64,000 bases of DNA from Apiotrichum sp. Y4204 (lineage: Eukaryota > Basidiomycota > Tremellomycetes > Trichosporonales > Trichosporonaceae). Position numbers and translations under genes: made by a program. The notes under the pieces are model-generated. The model was not told the DNA's origin and made no database searches. It worked only from the letters and a program-made list of their open reading frames with translations. How positions within the stretch are numbered: position 1 is the stretch's first letter; each line of letters begins with the position of its first letter. The stretch is from contig JAMYHL010000032.1 of NCBI GenBank assembly GCA_025531455.1, positions 1 to 64,000 on the forward strand. The letters are read 5' to 3'. Positions 949-63,770 of this stretch are shown in pieces.

Positions 949-2276
949 ATGGCCCCCGTGCCCCACTCGTCGATGCAGCCTGGCCCGCACCCGTACTCGC
1001 ACGCAACCGCCCACTCGCGCCTCCCCAGCCAAGGGTATCCGCCCAGTATCAAGAACCGCATGAGCAAGCGTGGCGCAAACGGCAACGCACTCGCCGACGC
1101 CGTCGTCCCGCACCACTCACACGGACCCGGCGGTATGATGCATCTCAAAGACCCCATGGGGAACGGAGTGGCGAACGGGGGCGGGTCGGCGGGAACGGGC
1201 CCCGGTGGCTTCTCCCAGCGCGTCAGGCCGCGTTCCAGCGGCACTCTCGAGGACATTGCTCGCCGGGTACGAGCACAGTCTGACCGGTACGCAGCTGCAT
1301 GGAGTGGAACTAGCTGACATCAGGTTTCAGCAGGCATTGATTCCCGCGGCGGAGAGCATCAAGGTGTTTGCCGAATCGTCTCCTGTCCTCTTTGTGCGTG
1401 CTGATTTGTGTCGACTCTTTGAGCACCGCTGATGCCAGACGTTCGTTGCTATCTTTGTCGCCCTTAGCCTCATTCCCACTATTATCTTCATGTGCGTCCA
1501 GAAATGACGAACCAGCGCCCCAGGCGCAGGGCGGACCATCACTGACCCCAGCGGCTTTGTCACTGCCGTCTCGGTATTCTCGACCGGCGTGTCGGCCATT
1601 CTTCTCTCCTTCTCCGTTGCGGGCACCATCATGGTCGGTCGTGAGTACTTTGGGGTATTGCTGGCTCTTGCGGGGCTCTGGATGTGTGACTCCAATCCTA
1701 ATCCATACTTTTCCGTCTCCAGAATCCACACTCACATCAGTCACGTTCCTCCTTCCAGTCCTCGCCGTGACAGGCACAATCTCAGTGCTTTGCGTGTCCT
1801 TCCTGTTGTGTGTCTTCCTCGCGCACCGGCTGTATCTGCACCTCACCCAGGCGACCGAGCACCACGCCGGCATGCCCGCGCTCCTCGCCGGCATCAGCAC
1901 GTGGTGGGACGAGACGCGCGCGCGCGTCGGCCTCGGCTCGTACCGCTACGGTGTGACCGCGTTTGAGGACTACAAGGCGTACGGCTCGCCAGGCACGCAG
2001 CCCCCCGCGCCTCTTGACGCGCCACAGCAGCCCGATCTCAAGCCCCCGCGCATCGTGTATGAGGCGCCCAACACCCTCGACTACACCGTCATGCACCCCC
2101 AGCCTACGCCGAGCTTCCCCGGCCGCGCCGTGTCCAACTCTGTCAAGGAAGAACCTGTCACGCCGGAGCGCAAGCCGGTCATTGAGGAGAAGCCCGAGAC
2201 GGACTTTGTGGAAAAGCCGGAGCACTACGAGGGCGAGTGGACGTCGGAGAGCGAGGCCGAGGGCAAGAAGGTGTAG
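949..2276 (+). CDS. Small multi-TM protein, promethin/LDAF1-like (tentative)
   Basis: Five exons (949-1286, 1324-1393, 1439-1491, 1552-1640, 1723-2276) join to 367 codons. Each intron has a GTRNGT-type donor and AG acceptor, and three contain CTGAY just before the AG. The first 110 residues are Pro/Gly/Ser-rich and disordered. Residues about 135-235 form three or four closely spaced hydrophobic helices, with FVAIFVALSLIPTIIF in the first and a final FLLCVFLAHRLYLHL. The tail is acidic and hydrophilic. The short helical hairpins after an SSPVLF entry resemble the promethin/Ldo family, membrane proteins that work with seipin at lipid-droplet assembly sites in the ER. This rests on pattern only. 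It could be another small fungal membrane family. ATG 949 was chosen because frames further upstream lack an ATG. Confidence 0.6.
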
Positions 2277-2516
2277 TTGGTTGACTGCTTGGTGGTTCTG
2301 TCTTCACACTTGGTGCCTAACGTCCTGTGGCTTCGCCTCGTTCTCCCCTTTCTTTGATGTCCTCTCCCACCCCCATGCTCCCCCGCTGCTCCACTCTCTC
2401 GCGCCCATGAGATGATGTGATATGACTATACATTCGAATACCCTTACACACTGTATCCGTGTTGTAGATGATGCGATGAAATGAAGGAAGATGTGATTTT
2501 GTGTTGACTTGGATTG
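2277..2516. other. 3' intergenic flank before hairpin array
   Basis: Non-coding sequence between the stop of the membrane-protein gene and the first hairpin. It is TG/AT-rich from 2400 to 2510. No obvious poly(A) signal could be assigned to either convergent gene. Confidence 0.5.
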
Positions 2517-2678
2517 CCTCCACTGTTGGAAGTGGGAGGATGCACTAGACTTTGGTGGGTCCGCCACTGTTGGAAGTGGCGGCCTAGAGTTACAATATAC
2601 GAACAGATTTTACTGGCGTGCTCTGTTGGAAGAAGCACGCCTCTAACGTTGGTGCCGCCCGCTGTTGGAAGCGGGTGG
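2517..2678. repeat. Array of four hairpins with identical loop and different stems
   Basis: Four stem-loops share the 10-mer CTGTTGGAAG: the closing C-G pair plus the 8-nt loop TGTTGGAA. Loops start at 2524, 2568, 2624 and 2663. The stems differ but stay complementary. H1 pairs 2517-2523 with 2532-2539 and has one bulged G. H2 pairs CCGCCAC (2561-2567) with GTGGCGG (2576-2582), perfect. H3 pairs GGCGTGCT (2615-2622) with AGCACGCC (2634-2641), perfect. H4 pairs CCGCCCGC (2655-2662) with GCGGGTGG (2671-2678) through one G-T, which is G-U in a + strand RNA but A-C in a - strand RNA. The array lies 70-230 nt after the MET2 stop and 240-400 nt after the + strand gene, so it could be in either 3' UTR or be a separate RNA or DNA element. 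No known family is recognised. Confidence 0.85.
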
Positions 2679-2745
2679 ACCATGGGACATAAAAACTTTT
2701 GGGGGTGGGGAGGGGGGAGTGGAGTGGAATAGACGCGACTGGTGC

Positions 2746-5097
2746 TTACCACGCAGTAACGTCCGCCTCGGCCTCGCCGAAGACGCTCTCCTTCTTGACG
2801 GCAAAGCCGTCCTGCTCGTCCTTGTTCCACTCGGCAAGGGAGATGACGCGCTCGCCATAGTACTGGGGCACCTTGCGGCGAAGCCATCCGTCGATCCAGC
2901 CGTTAATGGCCTGGAACTCGAGGAGGAAGCCGTCGTGGCCGTCGGGCGAGGGGATGATGACGAGCTCGGCGTCGGGGATGTGGGCGGCGAGTTCGCGCTG
3001 TTCGGACGGCTGGAAGAGGCCGTCGGACTCGATGCCGATCACGAGGGCCGGCGGGAGCAGCGTCAGCGCGTGGTGCAGTGCCGCCTCGGCCGCCTCGTCG
3101 CTGTCGTTGGGCTCCACCCCGGGCAGGGAGGCCGACAGGCCGCCGGGGAAGTTGGACGGGTGGGACAGGTCGTGGGTGTCGAGCTTGCGCGTGATATGAA
3201 TGTAGCAGTTGGCATCGAAACGGCCGGTGAACTTGTCGCCCTGGTAGCGCAGGTAGCTCTGGGCGTTGAACACCTTGGGACCACGCGTGCCGCCAGTGCT
3301 GAGCTTGCCGTTTCCAGAGGGAACGCCAATGTTGATGTTCGTACCGCTGGACACGGAGTGGCCGTTCGGAACGGGGCTGCTGGGGGCGCTGTGGCCGTTG
3401 GCCTCAAGGGAGGGGACGATCGGGGACGTGGGTGACGGGGGCGATGGGGGGCGGCTGCAATTCCGCGAGTGCGCCGGGCGGTGGCCGTCGTTGTGCTGGT
3501 GCCATGCCGTGGAGCGCGTGAGCTCAAAGGATGAAGGGATGGACGGGTCCGTCGTTTCACATCCGCCCATGACGCGCACGCCGCCGACGGGCACTTTGGC
3601 ACCCTTACGCCCGGTGCCCGTCTTGCGGCCGAACCGCGACTCGAAGCTGTCGCGCGAGCGGTATGTGAGAAGCGCCGCCATGCGGGCGGCAGCGAGACCA
3701 CGGGACGGCTGGTTGAGCAGGTCAACACTGCCGTCATCCATCTCATAATAGTAGCCGTCGCGGTAGTCGGGGTCCGAGTAGATCGACTGGCGCTGAGCCT
3801 CGCCCCACGAAATGCACCATGCCGAGTGCCTTGCGGAAGTAGCAAGAGCGACGACGGCCTTGACAAATCCTGGCGGGCAAACCAGCGGGTACTCGAGGGT
3901 GGTCATGCCGCCCATCGAGCCACCAATCACTGCCGCGACGGAATTTACGCCGAGCTGGCGGAGCACGAGGTAGTGGAGGCTGTGCTGTCAGCAAGTTTGC
4001 TCATCTGTGCGTTTGGAATTTGAGTGAAAAAGGGAGCAACATGGCCACCAAAAAGATGGCGTTCTCTGGTCGGACTTTCCGGCCGCCACCAGGAGTCCGA
4101 ATACCAGATACCATCGATGATACCATGAATGAAAATGACAGAGAGTGTGGTGGGGGACACGATGTTGGGCGAGATGCAATTGCCGAGGCAGTCATCGCAC
4201 GAGCCTCCTCCAGCATGCACACATATCCGCAGACCGAGACTGAGTCCACGGGCATTGTATTGCTGCCGCGGAATTGATTGATCTCAGTCCGCCAATTTCC
4301 GATCGTTTTCCAGGTGGCGGTGACCATTCCGCACCACACGGACAAGCGTGATCAGAATCTCACTACTCACCGGACATCGTCCTTTACGCTACTCCCTGGC
4401 ATCTCGGGGCCATATGGCCGTCCGGTTGCAGGGTTTGTTGTTACGCTCGATACTGTTCCGTAGGGTGATCCAATGACATTTCCGCAGAAGATGAAGAACC
4501 GTGTAGGGTCAAAGGCACGGTTAGGTCCAAGCAATGGCCCCCACCTGGGAAATGGTTAGCACCTGGGGGAGGATGTAGATGTTGTGCAGGGTAACAGGGC
4601 TCAGGGCAAGCCGCACCCAAAAAAGAGCAATCCAAAAAAGTGAGCACGCCATCGCGTTTCCTGGTACCCAGCCAGGGAACAGCCGCGCAGCCGGCGCCTC
4701 CACACCCCGTCAGGCATCGGATATCCCCTACACACATCAACTGTGCAAAGGAGAAGGGCAACCACTAGCCGATGCGATGGCCTTTCTGGCCCACCCCCCG
4801 TACTGATGCATGCAGCAACAAGTGCACAGCATGTATCGCCACTCCGCGTGCGCTCATCCACGACCTGCACACAGGAAGCACTCACCAGTCCTCGACATCT
4901 GCGCTGCCCGTGAGAGCGTGGTTGATGACGATGACATTGTCACCGGCGGCATTGAGCCTTCCCCATGTCTTGTACGCGACGGGCACGTCGTGCAGTTCGA
5001 CGCCGCTCTCAAAAGTAAAAGAGGGGAGGGTGACAATCTCCTGCTCGATGAGGGCGGCGAACGGGTTATTCGAGTCTCCTGCTGTTGCTGTTGGCAT
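2746..5097 (-). CDS. MET2: Homoserine O-acetyltransferase (MET2/MetX)
   Basis: Catalyses acetyl-CoA + L-homoserine to O-acetylhomoserine, the entry step to homocysteine and methionine. Exons 5097-4886, 4544-4371 and 3979-2746 join to 539 codons. Family landmarks run in order: NHALTGSADV (oxyanion region), LGPNRAFDPTRFF, CGNVIGSPYG, DDVRLHYLVL, then the nucleophile elbow GGSMGG (Ser about 150). The catalytic Asp lies in IESDGLFQ and the His in DGHDGFLLEF near the C-terminus. A Ser/Pro/Gly-rich disordered insert of about 110 residues separates the two halves of the alpha/beta hydrolase fold, as in other fungal MET2 proteins. The two introns (341 and 391 nt) are about ten times longer than the local norm. 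The start is the first ATG that gives a compact N-terminus; an in-frame non-family extension reaches 5247. Confidence 0.93.
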
Positions 5098-10888: not shown

Positions 10889-12377
10889 CTATAGCAACAC
10901 AAAAAGAGCGATCCCGACAACACTGATAATCTGATGTCAGCATCACAACCTGTTTAATACGCACTACTCGGCCTGCCACTTCTCCAGTATTACGCAAGCT
11001 ATTTGCGCCTGAGCTGGGACTCGCTGCCACGATAGTGTTGTTTGAAGGTGCCGCTGTGGAGGTTTGGAACCCGCTCGCCGCCGCCGTGGACGTGGAGGAA
11101 ACGACCGGCGTAACGCTCAACGTCGGGGTGTTGGTGGGGAGCTCGGTGCTTGTGAACGGCGCTCTGTTCTCGTACCTGATGATGCGTCCGCTGGGGCTGT
11201 ATATCATTAGCCAAGGGTGCGTGTAGAAACATACTTCTTCACAGTAAGGAATGCTATACTGGTGAGGTTGAAGTAAGCGTTGTCGGACACGCCCGTAATG
11301 GTGATGGTGGTCTGGTTGGTATTGAGCGGGTTGAGCGCGAGCATCAGGAACGGCACGGCGTTGGAGCTCCCAAACGACCGCAGGGTGGTGTTGAAGAAAC
11401 CCGAGGTATTCTCGTCTGCGGGGAGGAACGGGAGCGGGATCGAGCTCGTCCACTTGGCTCGCGGCTCGAGGGCCTGTGGGTACACGTCTCCTGCTGCTGT
11501 GTTCCCGCTGACGAGCAGCATGCCTGTCTCCCTTGGAGGTATGATTACGAGCTCTGTGCCCTTGAGCAGCTTCAAGGAGTGGAACTGGGCCACGGTGTGA
11601 TCCACTTGCGAAGGTCAGTATACGATTGACCTTCCCGTCTTTGGTGAATACGGGTGCAGGGCACTGGAACCAACTGTTAACTACTCACCGCCCTCTCCCG
11701 GTTCCGGATAATGTGCTGTTGTCTCGATGTCTCCCATGATCTTGATGTGCTTATTAGAGACCACAGTGCCGTTTGTGACCAGTTCGTAGTCATCGCCAAA
11801 AGCACCGTTGGCTCCAGTGCTGGACGTCAGTCGACCACCAGCGCTCCCGGTCCGAAAGCCCTACATACTCTGGAGGAGCGGGGATGATGATGTCCATATT
11901 GACATTTCTGATATTCTGCACATTGTACAGCATCACATCATGGTATCCGTACGGCAGGTCGTCGGCAAGGATCCAATCTGAGAAATCCTCGTCCCAGTCT
12001 GCGTCAACGACAAGGGGCACGCGCGCGACCCTCTCGTGTCCGGCAGTAATGACCTCGGCGACACCGTATTCGGCGGTGGTGTACGACCCATTTGCATCCT
12101 TAGTGTCGAAAGTTGAAAACGCGCCAGTAAGCCCAAAACTCCGCCCAGTAAACTGGAAGCGCACATTCCAGCCCCCGTCTGCGGGCGGCTGCGTGCACTC
12201 GACAATGATTCCGTTGGGGACCCAGTCTCCGCGCAGAGTCAGCTCGTCAGAGAACCGATTCCATGCCTCTGTTGCCGTGCTCAGCTCGTACGCCTCGGCT
12301 GGCCTAAATCCGATAGCTAGAGCCCAGAAGAGTGCGAAGACCGCGACCAGTCGATGGCTTGGGAGTAGACGACTCAT
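10889..12377 (-). CDS. Secreted surface protein with C-terminal GPI-anchor-like signal
   Basis: Exons 12377-11869, 11819-11689, 11604-11235, 11175-10965 and 10930-10889 join to 420 codons. It starts with a signal peptide (FALFWALAIGFRPAEA). Two beta-rich extracellular modules follow; the first ends YGYHDVMLYNVQN and the second holds SLKLLKGTELVIIPP and ITITGVSDNAYF, with several N-glycosylation sequons. A Ser/Thr/Pro stalk precedes SSGANS and a terminal hydrophobic run IISVVGIALFVLL at the stop, the layout of a GPI-anchor signal. The last 34-nt intron is essential: without it the frame loses the hydrophobic end. Tandem paralog of the next gene, which keeps a TM helix and a cytoplasmic tail. 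The ligand is unknown; the modules could be carbohydrate-binding jelly rolls. Confidence 0.72.
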
Positions 12378-13077
12378 ATTGCGTGTGTCGTCGATTCACG
12401 AGGAACTTTGGCTGTAAATAAGGATGGCAATGAGACGGTACGTGATTGCGAGCGAGTGAGTTGAGGTTCTGAGATCAAGTGATCCATTAGACAAACCAGT
12501 GCAGTTCATAAGTACGGAAGGCCTTTTGCTCCACCCTCTGAAGATTCATGTCATGACGCGAACGACCAACACGCCGTTCGGCTCGGTGAGTTTACAGTTT
12601 TCGTCCCCATCGTGCCTGGGCCGATGGCGTCTCGGATCGTTCCTGGTCCCATCGATCGGAACAACTTGTACTCTTGTCCGAAACACTCGACAGGAGACGC
12701 GCATGCTAGCCGTTGTCCGGGAAAGTTTGGATCTGGCTGCCGTCAACAACCCGTCTGATGGGGATGCGCGTTCAACTGCCTATGCTTAGACTAGGGCTGC
12801 AAAAGCGGGAGCAGGGCTCACATACATATATATACGGTACAGCCTCCGCGTAAGGACGGTCTCGGACACTTGTGATGGTGCTCACACGACTTGTCCCATG
12901 TTGTCCTTCCCGCAGGTGCAATGTTGAAACTGACCCTGGGGCATGCCGTGCTTTAATGTATACGCTTTAATGTATACGGAGGCGCCACCTGGCTTGAAGA
13001 ACATGGAGCCGTCTTTTTTTCCTGCAGAAATTCTGCACACGTGAAGTAGAGGTACATGGTGGTGGTGTGTATGACAA
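12378..13077. other. Promoter region of the GPI-type paralog
   Basis: Contains a TATA-like run (ACATATATATACGG, about 12823-12836) and a perfect tandem repeat of GCTTTAATGTATAC at 12950-12963 and 12964-12977. No coding frame is supported. It presumably serves the minus-strand gene starting at 12377 and the 3' end of the neighbour ending at 13078. Confidence 0.5.
12950..12977. repeat. 14-bp perfect tandem duplication
   Basis: GCTTTAATGTATAC occurs twice head to tail about 575 bp upstream of the minus-strand start at 12377. Function unknown; it may be a duplicated operator or simple slippage. Confidence 0.8.
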
Positions 13078-14932
13078 TCAGCTCTGGCTCTGGCGGTTCT
13101 GTCGCCTGGCCTTCCACGACGGATTGTACATGGGAGGAAGCAGCTCGTCCTCGACGAGCTCGTCTGGCGGCACGACCTCCAGCTCTCCCGCGTCCTCGTC
13201 GTGTCTGACGCCTCGGGTGCGGAGTGGTGCGCGTTCGCGAGCTGGAGTACTTGAAGTTGAGGGCCCAGACGGCGCCTCTGATGATCGTGCGGCTGGAGGA
13301 GTGGATGCGGGGTTCTTTGTGAACATGGTGGGGGTTTTCCCTTCGGTCGGATCCGGGAGAATGTCGCTTTCGACCGGAGAGTTGTCGTGGTAAGGGTTTA
13401 GTATGGGCGCATCGCTGCTGCCTGCGCGCATGGCTTGGAAGTTGTCATCGTCGATCGTACCGTTTCTGCCGTGTCAGAAGTGTAGTCGGCAAGGATACTC
13501 ACAGTGCTCGCGGTGAATGCTGGCGCCTCCTTCGTCTCATGATGAAGAACACAATGAATGCAAGCAGGGCAGCTCCCACAACACCGCCGACCTGATATTA
13601 GCTACACGGCGCACGTTTATCAAACGGGTCGGCTCAACGTACCACTCCGCCAGCAATGGCTCCAGCGCTCGAGGTCTTGTTGGACACCGGACTCCCGGGG
13701 GTGGAAGTGAGATCAGTGTCGCTGGGTCCATTTGGACGCGAAGTGGTGCCTGTCGCCGGAGGGGAGGACGTTGTTGCCGGGTCGTCGCCTATCAGAAGGA
13801 TCTCTCCTCCTTGAGGACTGTTCATCAGTAATGCTGTGAAGTGAAGCGAAGCAGACAGCAGAACTCACTTCTCTGCACTAAGGGCGGTCATGCTTACGAT
13901 TTGGAAGTAATTGTCGTCCGAAACCCCCGAAAGCGTAATGGTTGTGTCGTTGTCATAGAGCGGGTTGAGGGCCAGTACGAGTGCAAAACCCCCCGAGAGA
14001 AAGGATTTGCTCGGCGTGCGATACGTTGAAGTGAACACTCCCGAAGTGCTGTGGTTTGCAGGAAGCCACGGAAGAGGGGCCGAGCTCGTCCACTTGCCTT
14101 CCGCCGTAAAGCCGATGGGATAGGTCGATCTGTTCGCCCACGACGCCATGACCATGAAGAGGCCAGTGTCCTTCGGAAGGGTGACGACCAGCTCAGTGTC
14201 TTTAAGGAGTTTCAACGTAGCCGTGTTGTTAAGAGATTGGCCGTCTAGAAATGAGTTAGCGGGCACTCTGCAAATGGCGGATAAATTGTCGACTTACAAG
14301 GTTCCGGGTTTGGGGGAAGTACTGTGGTCTGTAGTTCTCCTCTTACTGTGTAATACGGCGACGTGGTGTTCCATTTGCCGTCCGGTCTATCAATGGGGAG
14401 AATCTCAATGGCATTGACATTACCGTCACTTGGGGTGCTACCACGTCAGTAACGCACACGCAAAGCGAAATGAGAGTTATTGTACTTACTTTGGCGGGGC
14501 TGGGATAATATTTGCCATGGCGACCTTGACGACTGACGAGACGTTATAAATAACCACGTCGTGATACCCATACGGAACGGGCTCGGCGAAGGTGAGCACA
14601 CCGGGCGTGGAACTAATCGCGAGAGTCACCGTTAGGGGATTTTCGACTCCCACTGTCGCAACAGTGGCCTGACCCCCGTCGTTGGCCAGTTCACCCTCAA
14701 ACTGGAAGCCAGCCCCGAGATACTGGAACCGCAGATCGCACGGCTGTTGCGTACAGTTCGCGATGCGCCCCTCCTCATCATACGACCACTCGCCGTCATA
14801 CGTCAGGTCCCTCTGGAACGTCAACTCCGTCACGCTCAACTCGTAGGCGCTGGCGGTCGGACCAAGCGTCACAAAGGCGATGAACAGCGACATCATCGTG
14901 ACTAGTGCCGAGCGGGTGTCGAAGGCGCTCAT
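13078..14932 (-). CDS. Single-pass surface protein, paralog of the GPI-type neighbour
   Basis: Six exons (14932-14490, 14437-14298, 14244-13869, 13817-13643, 13591-13503, 13465-13078) join to 536 codons. Signal peptide: SLFIAFVTLGPTASA. Two extracellular modules match the neighbour: YGYHDVVIYNVSS in the first, LKLLKDTELVVTLPKDTG and ITLSGVSDDNYF in the second. A Thr/Ser/Pro stalk leads to a TM helix (GGVVGAALLAFIVFFI) and a basic stop-transfer RRRRRQ. The cytoplasmic tail of about 140 residues is Pro/Ser-rich and ends near PPMYNPSWK. The third member at 38.8-40.8 kb has the same order and a matching PPSYDPAW tail. It may be a receptor or wall-sensor type protein; the role is not known. Confidence 0.75.
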
Positions 14933-15652
14933 CGCGCGCAGACTTGCCTGTTGGCGAAGCTAAATGGTAATGTGTTGAAAGTGGTGATGTCAAGAGCAAC
15001 GAAGGGAGGAGAGAGCTTCAAGGTATGGGTAAGTTTCAAAACGGCGTTAGCATGTAAGTTGGGGTGCAGCAAGCGTGATGGATGCTCGACAGAACTATGG
15101 AAGAAGCAGGGGCTGTATAAGTGTCCGAAATATCCAGGGAGTGAAGTGGTATGATAAGATGACAGCATGGATCCATCTTGTTCCTGTGACACGAAAAGTT
15201 TCCACAATCTGGTGAGTCCTGAAACTGGACGTGGGTGCTGGAACGGCGCCGCTCACCGCTTTCCTCAATCTGAACGGCAGCCAGGGGTGCGGGAACAGGG
15301 GGTCCACAACCGCATCCCGGCGTACCCCTGATAAACGGCGGTTCGGGACATGTATGGTGGGTCATAACGTTTGTCGCCGGTAAGCTCTTCAAGCTGGCGA
15401 GTGCGTCACGAGCAACTGCTGTTGCGGATGAATCCCTGGTGACCATTAACTTTCTATTCTTCGACGCTGCGACAGGCGACATATGGGATCCATGACGAAG
15501 ACGAGTCTCATGAAAAAGTGGCGGATGATATCGCTGTTGCCCAGATACGTTGGCCAAGGGTTCAGGAGCGTCGACTAGATCCAAACGTTGCGAATCTCAA
15601 CGTTGAAGGCCAGCAAAACACAGTGACCCATTTCACCCCCTTGCCATTCCCG
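14933..15652. other. Intergenic region upstream of the single-pass surface protein
   Basis: Holds the promoter of the gene starting at 14932 and the 3' flank of the polymerase gene. A minus-strand frame of 182 codons (15584-15036) is open but has no motif, mixed composition and no splice support, so it is not annotated. Confidence 0.4.
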
Positions 15653-38841: not shown

Positions 38842-40775
38842 CTATGAGTTCTGGCGCACAACAGTCCCATACCCCGCCGCCGCCGCTGCGATGCGGCCCT
38901 CCCTGCTCGCCGCCCACGCGGGGTCATAGCTGGGGGGGATGAACTCCATAACGCCGTCCTCGACCACGACGCCCGCATCGCGTTCCTGCGTAAAGGGGGA
39001 GAAGGGAGTCTGGGGGGAGGGCGTGAGCGGCGATGCAGAGGTGGGTTGGAAAGGCTGTAGGGTCTGGAGCGGTTGGAGGGGGTAGATCTCATTCGGGCGG
39101 GCGGGGGAGCGCGGCGCGGCGGATAGCGGCGATCCCACGCCGCGCGCAAGCTCCGCCTCGAGCGGGGTCTTGAGGCCCTTTGTCTGCGCGAGGAGTGGCG
39201 GGAGCTGCGTTGGAGCAAGCGGGGAGAGGAGCGTGTCGCCTCCGCGGTTAGCGGCGAGAGCTGCGGTTCTGCACGCGTCAGTTGAGAGCGTGTACTGAAC
39301 GTACACATGCGGAGGGAGCGTGGATTGCGGCTGAGCGTTGTGCGGGATATGGGGGCCGGCCTCGGCAGTCTTGTCTGCGCGCGGCGGGGCAGGCGGGAAT
39401 GCTTTACCCGGGAGTGCTGGCGTCAGCCTTGGAAGAAAACACCACTTACCTGGGCCGTGGATGAACGGCGTGGGGGACGGCGGGTCGATGTCGAAGTCGG
39501 GATCGACAGGCTTTTCGGTGCGTCGAGGACGGTCACGCCGGCGACTAGAGTAAGCGCTGATTAGAAACAAACTCACCGGCGGAGGAAGAAGATCAGAGCA
39601 CCGATGAGGAGCGTACCTACCACACCGCCGACCACGCCACCGGCCACCGCGCCGACGATGGCCTTCTTCCCTGGTACGGGAGCCGACGGGCTGGGCGTGG
39701 GATCGCCGGCGCGCGTACCCCCTGAGACACTGGTGCTTGCTGCATCGGTTGTAGTCGCGAGGGTGGCGGGAAAGGTATTGTTCCCCCATCCCTGTGGCAT
39801 TCTATCGTCAGCCCTGCCGGGTATCTGCTCCACTCACTCAAGGGTGGCAAGGTAGAATGTGACGCTCTCGATCCCGAGGGTGCCATTTCCCGCATTCTCA
39901 AACCCAGCCGCATAATTCGTCCATGTGCGCTCGATGGCCCGCGAGTGGAGGACACACGGGGTCTCGTACGCCGACGTCGTGTTGAGCGTCACGGGGCTGC
40001 GGGGGGACACGCTCGCATCCGCCCCGCTCCACGACACGCGTGCGGCCGTGCCGTTGTACGAGCAGATACCGACAAACTCGATGTATGCGGTTTCGGGCGG
40101 AACGGCAAACGACATGGTTGCGCCTGGTGCGCCGAGTGCGTGCCGGAGGGACTTTGCCGTAGCTGACAGTCAGCGGAGGACACACACCGCACCCAAACCC
40201 GTCGCTTACTCACCTCCCCTTCCGAGCGTCGTCTCGGCCGTCCAGCTCCCGGACCGATTGAAAAACGGGTTCAGCGTGTCGTCCTCCAGAACCGCATTCA
40301 TCGTGATTCTCGGTGCTGCGGCCGCGCTCTCCGCGTCGATATCCATATTACTCTGCACCTCAATCTCCGCGACGCTCACATTTCCCCGCTCCATGACAAA
40401 CTCGAACGTGTTGTATCCCCACGACACGCCCTCGACTGTGTATTCGTCGATCACCCACGGTCCGCCGTTCACCTCTGCTTTCCAGTCGGCGATCAGCGAC
40501 CCGCGCCCCGTTATCCCCGTGCCGACTATCGCGAGCTTCATCGCTGCTCCCGGCCGCGAGGTGCGCAGCGTCGCGCCCTCAAGATACATCCCTGGTGCCC
40601 AGGCGACCCCGGCCCCGAGATCCGTCACCCACCCATCGGCCGGGGACGCGTTTAGTCCCCATACCTCTGGCGTCCATTCGATTATTGGGTCGGCGGGTGA
40701 AAATGTGCGGTTGAAGGAACGGAGCTCGGCGCTGGTCAGCCCCGCGATGGCGAGAATGAGCGCTAGTGTGATCAT
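38842..40775 (-). CDS. Third member of the single-pass surface protein family
   Basis: Exons 40775-40214, 40162-39838, 39801-39577, 39544-39450 and 39416-38842 join to 593 codons. A 36-nt in-frame stretch in the last exon has a perfect GTACGT...CTGACGCGTGCAG intron layout and may be removed, giving 581. Signal peptide: MITLALILAIAGLTSA. Two extracellular modules follow (WGYNTFEFVMERGNVSV in the first; a second beginning SLRHALGAPG), with Asn sequons. A Thr/Ser/Pro stalk leads to the TM helix GGVVGGVVGTLLIGALIFFL and RRSRRR. The Pro-rich cytoplasmic tail of about 240 residues ends PPSYDPAWAASREGR, matching PPMYNPSWKARR in the gene at 13.1-14.9 kb. Function unknown; the conserved tail motif suggests an intracellular partner. 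Confidence 0.75.
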
Positions 40776-43773: not shown

Positions 43774-44867
43774 GTTGTTTTTGTGGATTGGAGTGGAGAG
43801 GAGTAGAGGAGAAGGGTGTCGAAATCGAAAACAAATGTTGGCATGTGTCAGCTGTTGGGTGGCAAACCCGGCAAAAAGTGCCACTCTGCGGGGTTTTTGC
43901 AACCGCCGACCACCCTCAGTTCAACCAGCCTTGGTGCGAGCAAGCCACCACACTGCCATTGTCCACTACTGCCTGCTGTTCTCGTCACTTCTCTCGCACC
44001 ACGCGATTTTTTACCATCCCATCCATCTCTTGTGCGAGGTTGAGGATTAGAGTATATATACTTCTATCCACACTCGTCTTTTACTCTTCTTCTTTTCTTC
44101 CACTTCTGCTCAGCCCTCTGCAAGGCCAATGCGCCGTTGAGCAAAGGTCCCTCATCACCAGGTCCCTCCTTTTAATTCCTTAAAAGGAGCCTGGTGTCGA
44201 GGCTACACCTTCATTCCCTCAAACAACATCCAGCCGGTGAGTCGCGTCTTCCCATTGCCCCATCCACTCTCCATCCCATCCAACCCATCCTCCTCGTTTC
44301 TGTGATGAAACACTTTATTCAGTTCTGCTTCCGAGAGGTCGTGAGCGATAACCCAAATTTACCAAAAACTCTTTCTGAACTTTACATCCACATACATCTT
44401 TCTTCTCTTGTTGAAGAACGAGCGCTGACTGTGTAGCTTCTCCGTTAGCCCTTTGGGAATAACACAAGCTGTCCCGTTGGACTACGACGACGTAAGTGTC
44501 CTATCCTATCTCCTCCTTCCATAGCTCCCAACATGATTTAAATTTAGCTCAATCCATTCTCTTATCCCTCCTTCTCTCCCTCTGGTTCGGCGTACCTGCC
44601 TGTCTGCTGCCGTGGGGGCCGACTACTCTCAGTACCAGCTTCGGCTGTGGAAAGGAAGAAAGGCTCAGTCGGACGCGGGCGTGAAGGGCAGCTTGGCGGG
44701 CCTTGTTGACGGTCTGATGAACGCGTTCTGCTTTCTGACGATTTGATCGGGGTGTACTGTTGGCCAGTTGTGAGGCTGGGGCGAGTGTGCTTAAACTGCT
44801 ACTATGATTCTTCTACGCTTTCACGTCAACTACAAACAATGAGAATGCAAGATGTTGACCTTGACAG
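43774..44867. other. Divergent promoter region, RTF2 / TAF13
   Basis: No gene. The TAF13 side is CT-rich. A GTAAGT at about 44492 and the TTGACAG just before ATG 44868 could delimit a 5' UTR intron of about 375 nt. A perfect 10-bp inverted repeat lies at 44166-44189. Confidence 0.5.
44166..44189. repeat. Perfect 10-bp inverted repeat
   Basis: CTCCTTTTAA and TTAAAAGGAG are separated by TTCC, giving a strong hairpin in DNA or in a transcript reading either way. It lies 680 bp before the TAF13 ATG. Role unknown. Confidence 0.85.
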
Positions 44868-63684: not shown

Positions 63685-63770
63685 TCTCCCAACCCTGATT
63701 CGAACAGGGGACCGACGGATTTGCAGTTAACCATTACAGTCCGGCGCTCTACCAACTGAGCTATTGAGAG
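63685..63770 (-). tRNA. tRNA-Tyr(GTA), intron-containing
   Basis: Acceptor CTCTCAA (63770-63764) pairs with TTGGGAG with one G-T, discriminator A at 63685. D arm GCTC-AGTTGGTA-GAGC. The anticodon loop reads CTGTAA, then a 12-nt intron (TGGTTAACTGCA) and A before the 3' stem, giving anticodon GTA. T arm CCCTG-TTCGAAT-CAGGG is perfect. Eukaryotic nuclear tRNA-Tyr genes nearly always carry an intron here. Confidence 0.95.

Follow-up and report, generated by a model that had tools for sequence, protein, structure and literature searches.

Four hairpins downstream of MET2

Does a 10-mer that heads four stem-loops within 162 bp beside MET2 mark a folded RNA and, if so, on which strand and for which gene? 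We studied this question in a window of 64,000 nt, the whole stretch of DNA that was analysed, and in the 48.9 Mb genome to which it belongs. As originally predicted, exact copies of CTGTTGGAAG lie at 2523, 2567, 2623 and 2662 on the + strand, and every copy heads a hairpin; the four one-loop hairpins are found ~65–230 nt downstream of the MET2 stop codon (Table 1). In the + strand stems all 27 cells over seven pairs are standard, and four of the seven pairs are changed on both sides. Covariation reaches 0.786 as compared to a shuffled mean of 0.173 (0/500 shuffles reach 0.786), and the number of pairs changed on both sides was equalled by 19/500 shuffles. The argument that simple duplication would have copied the stems as well stands for H3, the arms of which are unrelated, but not for H1 and H2, which are identical at 18 of 19 positions, with some copying visible. 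Similarly, the loop taken to be an invariant 10-mer is indeed shared by the four hairpins, but its invariant part is the hexaloop UCCAAC, which marks several genes. As read in the MET2 mRNA (minus strand), the unit that does not vary is this hexaloop, and the stem that carries it covaries; the 10-mer is a local form of the more general motif, in which the hexaloop lies on the other strand. In the MET2 mRNA the hexaloop is closed by a U-A pair.

Table 1. Features of the MET2 locus, in window coordinates. P is the ensemble probability of the C-G pair closing the 8-nt loop in the sense RNA.
Feature	Position	Strand	Remarks
MET2 mRNA hairpin a (H4 on +)	2653..2681	-	Hexaloop UCCAAC at 2664-2669; nearest to MET2 stop; sense -18.9 kcal/mol; P 1.00; unchanged in homeolog
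MET2 mRNA hairpin b (H3 on +)	2615..2641	-	Hexaloop at 2625-2630; one bulged base; -15.8 kcal/mol; P 0.76; unchanged in homeolog
MET2 mRNA hairpin c (H2 on +)	2560..2584	-	Hexaloop at 2569-2574; -17.4 kcal/mol; P 1.00; unchanged in homeolog
MET2 mRNA hairpin d (H1 on +)	2517..2539	-	Hexaloop at 2525-2530; one bulged base; -8.9 kcal/mol; P 0.96; unchanged in homeolog
Conserved block with array, probable MET2 3′ UTR (predicted)	2386..2711	-	5/326 substitutions between homeologs
MET2, homoserine O-acetyltransferase	2746..5097	-	Exons 4886-5097, 4371-4544 and 2746-3979 (by eye); Abhydrolase_1 match
Convergent neighbour gene	949..2276	+	No Pfam match in two pieces tested; not likely hairpin owner

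The exact 10-mer is not enriched genome-wide, with 99 sites versus 132 for a reversed control. Eight of the 99 are the four copies in the MET2 array and four in a homeologous duplicate of this region, found on contig C68, where the four hairpins keep the same spacing (44/56/39). None of the other 91 sites has more than three contiguous stem pairs, a count that ignores bulges, gives H3 itself a score of 1 and could miss bulged hairpins; with this caveat, a regulon built on the exact 10-mer was rejected. Six stretches, the window and its homeolog among them (273,801 bases in all), were scanned for three hairpins of at least 6 pairs with a common 6–10 nt loop within 250 bp, and only this array and its homeolog matched. 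A genome-wide search for linked 7-mer pairs (36 rows versus 21 in the reversed control, and 25 versus 33) revealed no new array by eye. Viral and bacterial contigs with three 10-mers, comprising 3 and 9 stretches, were considered and set aside as tandem repeats, their flanks hardly varying in the copies examined, and a search of viral contigs with the MET2 and STR2-type proteins found no relative.

No Rfam family was found at the array at the gathering threshold, where the two matches in the window lie elsewhere and neither is an iron-responsive element, or at a relaxed threshold, which gave two weak matches (E 0.49 and 3.7). By Rfam, the window also holds an snR61-type C/D snoRNA at 44297–44381 (+) and a tRNA gene at 63685–63770 (-).

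The hexaloop at other genes of homocysteine synthesis

The check for further copies in this genome that accompanied the original prediction was productive, and more hairpins with the same hexaloop were found at three other genes. Flanks of ~750 nt, starting at the 3′ end of the family match, were examined for the five PF01053 homeolog pairs over the family cut-off, ten flanks in all. Sense UCCAAC occurs at three of the five genes, and the six flanks of those genes (both homeologs) contain no antisense UCCAAC. At the MET17-type gene (C99/C137), the hairpin GGCG-U-AGGU-UCCAAC-ACCU-CGCC, at -12.3 kcal/mol, spans the stop codon. The STR3-type gene (C123/C122) carries two hairpins with GUUG/CAAC stems, 66 nt apart, in an apparent intron beside the junction with mevalonate kinase, and these form at 0.33–0.43 in the ensemble. 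In the 3′ flank of the STR2-type gene (C93/C172), three tandem copies with stems GAGA/UCUC, GAGA/UCUC and UAGA/UCUC and a fourth, imperfect copy lie within ~170 nt of the stop codon; two have four-pair stems and two are weaker, no stem exceeding four pairs beside the loop, and the hairpins form at 0.02–0.46. Either a bound factor or the number of repeats compensates for the weak STR2-type stems, or these copies are worth less as evidence. The flanks of the two other PF01053 genes (C164/C111 and C139/C94) hold no sense UCCAAC.

Gene identities were assigned from protein families and named relatives, with splice sites and exon joints read by eye. Relatives of MET2 are named homoserine O-acetyltransferase, the nearest species-named one being from Vanrija pseudolonga (74%). 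Protein matches place the fungus no more closely than as a relative of Trichosporonales. In both of its exons C99 matches TIGR01326, O-acetylhomoserine sulfhydrylase, better than any other family (376 and 269 bits), each exon alone falling below the whole-protein cut-off of 495. For the lyase exons of C123 the best match is TIGR01329, eukaryotic cystathionine beta-lyase (151, 316 and 46 bits; cut-off 487.5), and in the same gene the lyase is followed by mevalonate kinase (TIGR00549, 164.1 bits versus a cut-off of 163.05). C93 reaches no NCBIfam cut-off; cystathionine gamma-synthase is a common name in the best 120 of its 2232 relatives, the nearest named one at 82%. C139 and C164 fall in the cystathionine gamma-synthase/lyase families without a clear winner, and our guess for C139 is a CYS3-like gene. 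The fusion of lyase and mevalonate kinase is not peculiar to this fungus: the best 120 of 914 relatives are ~880–960 aa in length, most of them with both domains, and it is also present in many other basidiomycetes among the matches listed. Its apparent junction intron (L156, C123:79200-82600, at ~1930–2130) contains an in-frame stop soon after the lyase half in addition to the two UCCAAC hairpins, and intron retention or an early 3′ end would yield the lyase with only the start of the kinase.

In the pathway from homoserine to homocysteine, the tagged set covers the step to O-acetylhomoserine (MET2), the step on to homocysteine (MET17 type), and the route via cystathionine (STR2 and STR3 types). 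The mark of an RNA regulon is the same sense element on several functionally linked genes, and here four gene types carry it. The sense hairpin was found at none of five other sulfur genes (0/5) when the 3′ flanks of SAM synthetase, ATP sulfurylase, the best sulfate permease, PAPS reductase and methionine synthase were searched; three of the five have sense UCCAAC in at least one homeolog, in no case with more than one stem pair. The motif therefore does not define a general sulfur regulon.

How surprising is this gene set? In a blind count that left out MET2 and took a single homeolog per PF01053 flank (five flanks), TCCAAC was the only one of 173 hexaloops present at more than one gene, and it was present at three. 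The chance of at least three of five flanks for TCCAAC, a loop set in advance by MET2 (with 10-, 8- and 6-base forms counted), is 4.9e-7 on a background of 2 hairpins (at least 4 pairs) in 408 strand-kb. The blind scan is weak when taken alone, because some hexaloop was common to three of five random 750-nt chunks in 31/200 draws; it is the match to the MET2 loop that counts. Genome-wide, three TCCAAC at 20–50 spacing gave 13 rows versus 7 in the reversed control, and 6 of the 13 come from the two homeologs of MET2 and of the STR2-type gene. The other seven rows lie on six contigs; five of them (C94, C139, two at C117, and C158) look like coding repeats, as judged by the letters alone, and the rest are at C115 and C157.

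The four regions, counting one homeolog each, contain twelve sense UCCAAC sites, ten of which were aligned without gaps. Left out were one unpaired far-downstream MET17 site and the fourth STR2-type site, which has an A-A mismatch beside the closing pair, along with homeolog copies and extra unpaired sites present only in homeologs. Across ten hairpins and four core pairs, 39/40 cells are standard, a share that is partly a matter of choice since two of the twelve sites were dropped, and both sides vary in each of the four pairs. Covariation is 1.328 versus 0.275 in shuffles (0/500) and at most 0.411 with slid partners. Two measures were not above shuffles, namely the number of pairs changed on both sides (reached by 351/500) and further pair types (114/500). 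The pair closing the unchanged loop is U-A in five hairpins, A-U in three and G-C in two.

A model built from the ten hairpins was run against 223,770 bases, among them background sequence and every gene flank. Eight of the training hairpins and four homeolog copies take the top 12 places, which follows from how the model was made. The third STR2 hairpin, a member of the training set, scores 12.1 bits, under background matches of 18.2, 15.4 and 13.4, and the first, which overlaps the second, is absent from the matches listed. The 18.2-bit match, at 39201 in the window, is not conserved, with 6 of its 22 positions changed in the homeolog.

These patterns bear on an origin in which one palindrome was duplicated and its arms were made complementary by template switching without selection, or in which the array is a DNA cruciform or a mobile element. 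Such an origin appears extremely unlikely. The near identity of H1 and H2, the three STR2-type copies that resemble tandem repeats and the stem shared by the two STR3-type copies would all fit it, but four genes of one pathway, located on different contigs, carry the same loop, always in sense, with stems that are unrelated between genes, and the array is conserved against ~8% neutral change. Unlike a transposon or satellite, which had been raised as a different explanation and would be present in many dispersed copies, the array DNA has no match beyond itself and one homeolog.

Conservation between homeologs and the strand of the array

Between the two homeologs the 162-bp array differs by 2 substitutions, both in the H2–H3 spacer, and 0/104 bases of the MET2 hairpins are changed (P 1.5e-4 against 8.1%). 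The neutral scale was taken from third codon positions, which differ at 34/413 (8.2%) in MET2 exon 3 and at 775/9514 (8.1%) in 22 long ORFs, chosen mechanically and some of them probably not genes. The block around the array is conserved with a binomial P of 1.8e-7 against 8.1%; ~35 bp separate it from the MET2 stop codon, a spacer that has a deletion of 14 bp in the homeolog, and 2679–2745 has 0 substitutions in 53 aligned sites in one alignment and 1 in another. The unchanged hairpin bases and the covariation support the view, already put forward for this array, that selection acts on a folded RNA. Gene conversion was considered as a cause of homeolog identity, as MET2 introns are slow (3.4% and 3.8%). 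It was rejected: the exon-3 third positions differ at the neutral rate, and no recent gene conversion therefore lies behind the identity of the array.

Elsewhere, the two homeologs share an identical MET17 hairpin. Their STR3-type introns are separated by one substitution and small indels near the 3′ end, and their STR2-type blocks by one substitution and one insertion in ~125 nt, with flanks that differ at many sites. In all aligned MET17, STR3 and STR2 hairpins the loop and core stem are kept; these comparisons cover the two homeologs of one genome.

Several other features of the homeologous regions were observed. Neutral divergence between window positions 1–64000 and C68 is ~8%, as in a hybrid or allodiploid, and 11310–14941 has no counterpart at the homeologous place. 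The hairpin-free part of the conserved block, at 2386–2516 beyond the array, is changed at 3/131 sites. The two long MET2 introns (3980–4370 and 4545–4885), at ~3.4–3.8%, fall below third positions and may hold conserved elements.

With respect to strand, an ensemble fold of 2386–2720 on the minus strand forms all four hairpins (0.76–1.00 for the pair closing the 8-nt loop; Table 1). On the + strand H3 and H4 form at 0.99–1.00; H1 and H2 tend to be lost because the best structure pairs one with the other, and each reaches only 0.24 in the longest of the folded stretches and 0.42–0.43 in a shorter one. The original prediction had counted one G-T pair in favour of a + strand RNA, and proximity to the MET2 stop codon in favour of the minus strand; the pair corresponds to a single cell that is G-U on the + strand and A-C on the mRNA strand. 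The + strand reading did not hold up, as each of the four genes with UCCAAC hairpins carries the loop in sense and only the minus strand forms the whole array. A + strand transcript, whether the 3′ UTR of the membrane-protein gene that converges on MET2 or an independent ncRNA, is accordingly a highly improbable source of the hairpins. Besides the G-U pair, the strong folding of the + strand (z -4.91 against shuffles) agrees with such a transcript, but the minus strand folds as well (z -4.97), and divergence at 2277–2385, the 3′ flank of the neighbour, jumps to 21/107 sites, more than twice the neutral rate. The neighbour, which had been named as a possible owner, is on these grounds not likely to be one. 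The jump on its side and the conserved block on the MET2 side favour the MET2 mRNA as the putative owner, and minus-strand folding together with this block supports the earlier proposal of a 3′-UTR array on MET2.

A candidate hairpin regulon and its known counterparts

The array is probably the MET2 part of a family of cis-acting mRNA elements, in which UCCAAC-loop hairpins would be read by one factor as a post-transcriptional regulon for homocysteine synthesis. A constant loop, a free stem, the sense strand and a single pathway together look like the binding sites of a loop-reading factor. Each element would display the conserved unpaired hexaloop on a stem of free sequence, with predicted sites in the MET2 3′ region (four), at the stop codon of the MET17-type gene (one), in the STR2-type 3′ region and in the STR3/kinase junction intron (two). 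We infer that the elements are transcribed and that there is a trans-acting factor, with its signal and direction of control: this one factor, most likely a loop-reading protein, would bind all of the hairpins and adjust stability, 3′-end processing or splicing, or translation of the tagged mRNAs together, and homocysteine synthesis would thereby follow sulfur or methionine status. The stop-codon hairpin of the MET17-type gene and the intron hairpins of the STR3-type gene point to processing or translation, and not only decay.

The reader of the loop could instead be an RNA. Pairing of the loops with a GUUGGA-bearing trans-acting RNA, or sponging of such an RNA, seems improbable; a fixed six-base single strand on a stem is what it would use, and pairing would explain the exact conservation of the loop, but no Rfam match was found at the array. 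Within the locus, the loop complement occurs in the same transcript as a 7-mer at 682 on the + strand, and on the MET2 strand no complement of at least 6 bases was found.

Two known systems offer partial parallels to the protein-read elements that we favour. The iron-responsive element has a CAGUGN loop with a bulged C and is arrayed in the 3′ UTR of the transferrin receptor mRNA. Like the present elements, it forms a 3′-UTR hairpin array in which the loop stays constant and the stems vary, and it too is shared by genes of a single nutrient pathway, but here the loop is UCCAAC, the bulge is another one, there is no IRP link and the Rfam matches of the window are not iron-responsive elements. 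Smaug/Vts1, a hairpin-loop reader that acts on 3′ UTRs and exists in fungi, needs a CNGG loop; the sense loop UCCAAC lacks GG and the antisense loop has UUGG, neither of which is CNGG.

The closest parallel in logic is provided by METTL16, which in vertebrates acts on six hairpins of the MAT2A 3′ UTR and targets UACAGAGAA, as set out in PMC8163875. A member of this system would carry m6A, dependent on SAM, in the hairpin. On this model, the hairpins would be substrates of a SAM-dependent RNA-modifying enzyme, with modification reporting the level of SAM and altering stability or intron retention. We consider this unlikely, although several points agree with it: that same text describes several 3′-UTR hairpins of shared sequence on a methionine-cycle mRNA and a link to intron handling (PMC8163875), the STR3-type copies sit in an apparent intron, and UCCA beside C in hairpin loops is the context of NSUN6, which in animals methylates the C preceding UCCA at type II m5C sites (PMC8288183). 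In contrast to MAT2A, however, the loop is UCCAAC in 10/10 aligned hairpins, not UACAGAGAA, and the elements mark homocysteine-synthesis genes in a fungus, not SAM synthetase, whose 3′ flanks (L145 and L146) hold no sense TCCAAC. In none of the 10 aligned hairpins is UCCA preceded by the C that NSUN6 methylates; U, G or A stands there instead, and PMC8288183 treats animals.

None of METTL16, NSUN6, the iron-responsive element and Smaug/Vts1 fits. On our best reading the array would act in the manner of the iron-responsive elements or the METTL16/MAT2A hairpins, but it belongs to neither. A more specific form of the loop-reading factor is possible but doubtful: a single factor might read UCCAAC hairpins on the homoserine-to-homocysteine mRNAs, sense the state of the methionine cycle and, through the junction intron of the fusion gene, pick a lyase-only or a fused product, as a convergent counterpart of METTL16/MAT2A. 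If true, the choice at the junction intron would tie sulfur supply to isoprenoid synthesis.

Control of methionine genes in fungi is usually attributed to transcription factors, and no description of such an element was found in the literature among the matches listed. The reading of the hairpins as sites of one factor predicts effects that can be tested with ordinary RNA-seq and reporters, and the fixed six-base loop may serve as bait for finding the RNA-binding factor. A hairpin tag common to the homocysteine-forming steps would add a layer of control at the RNA level.
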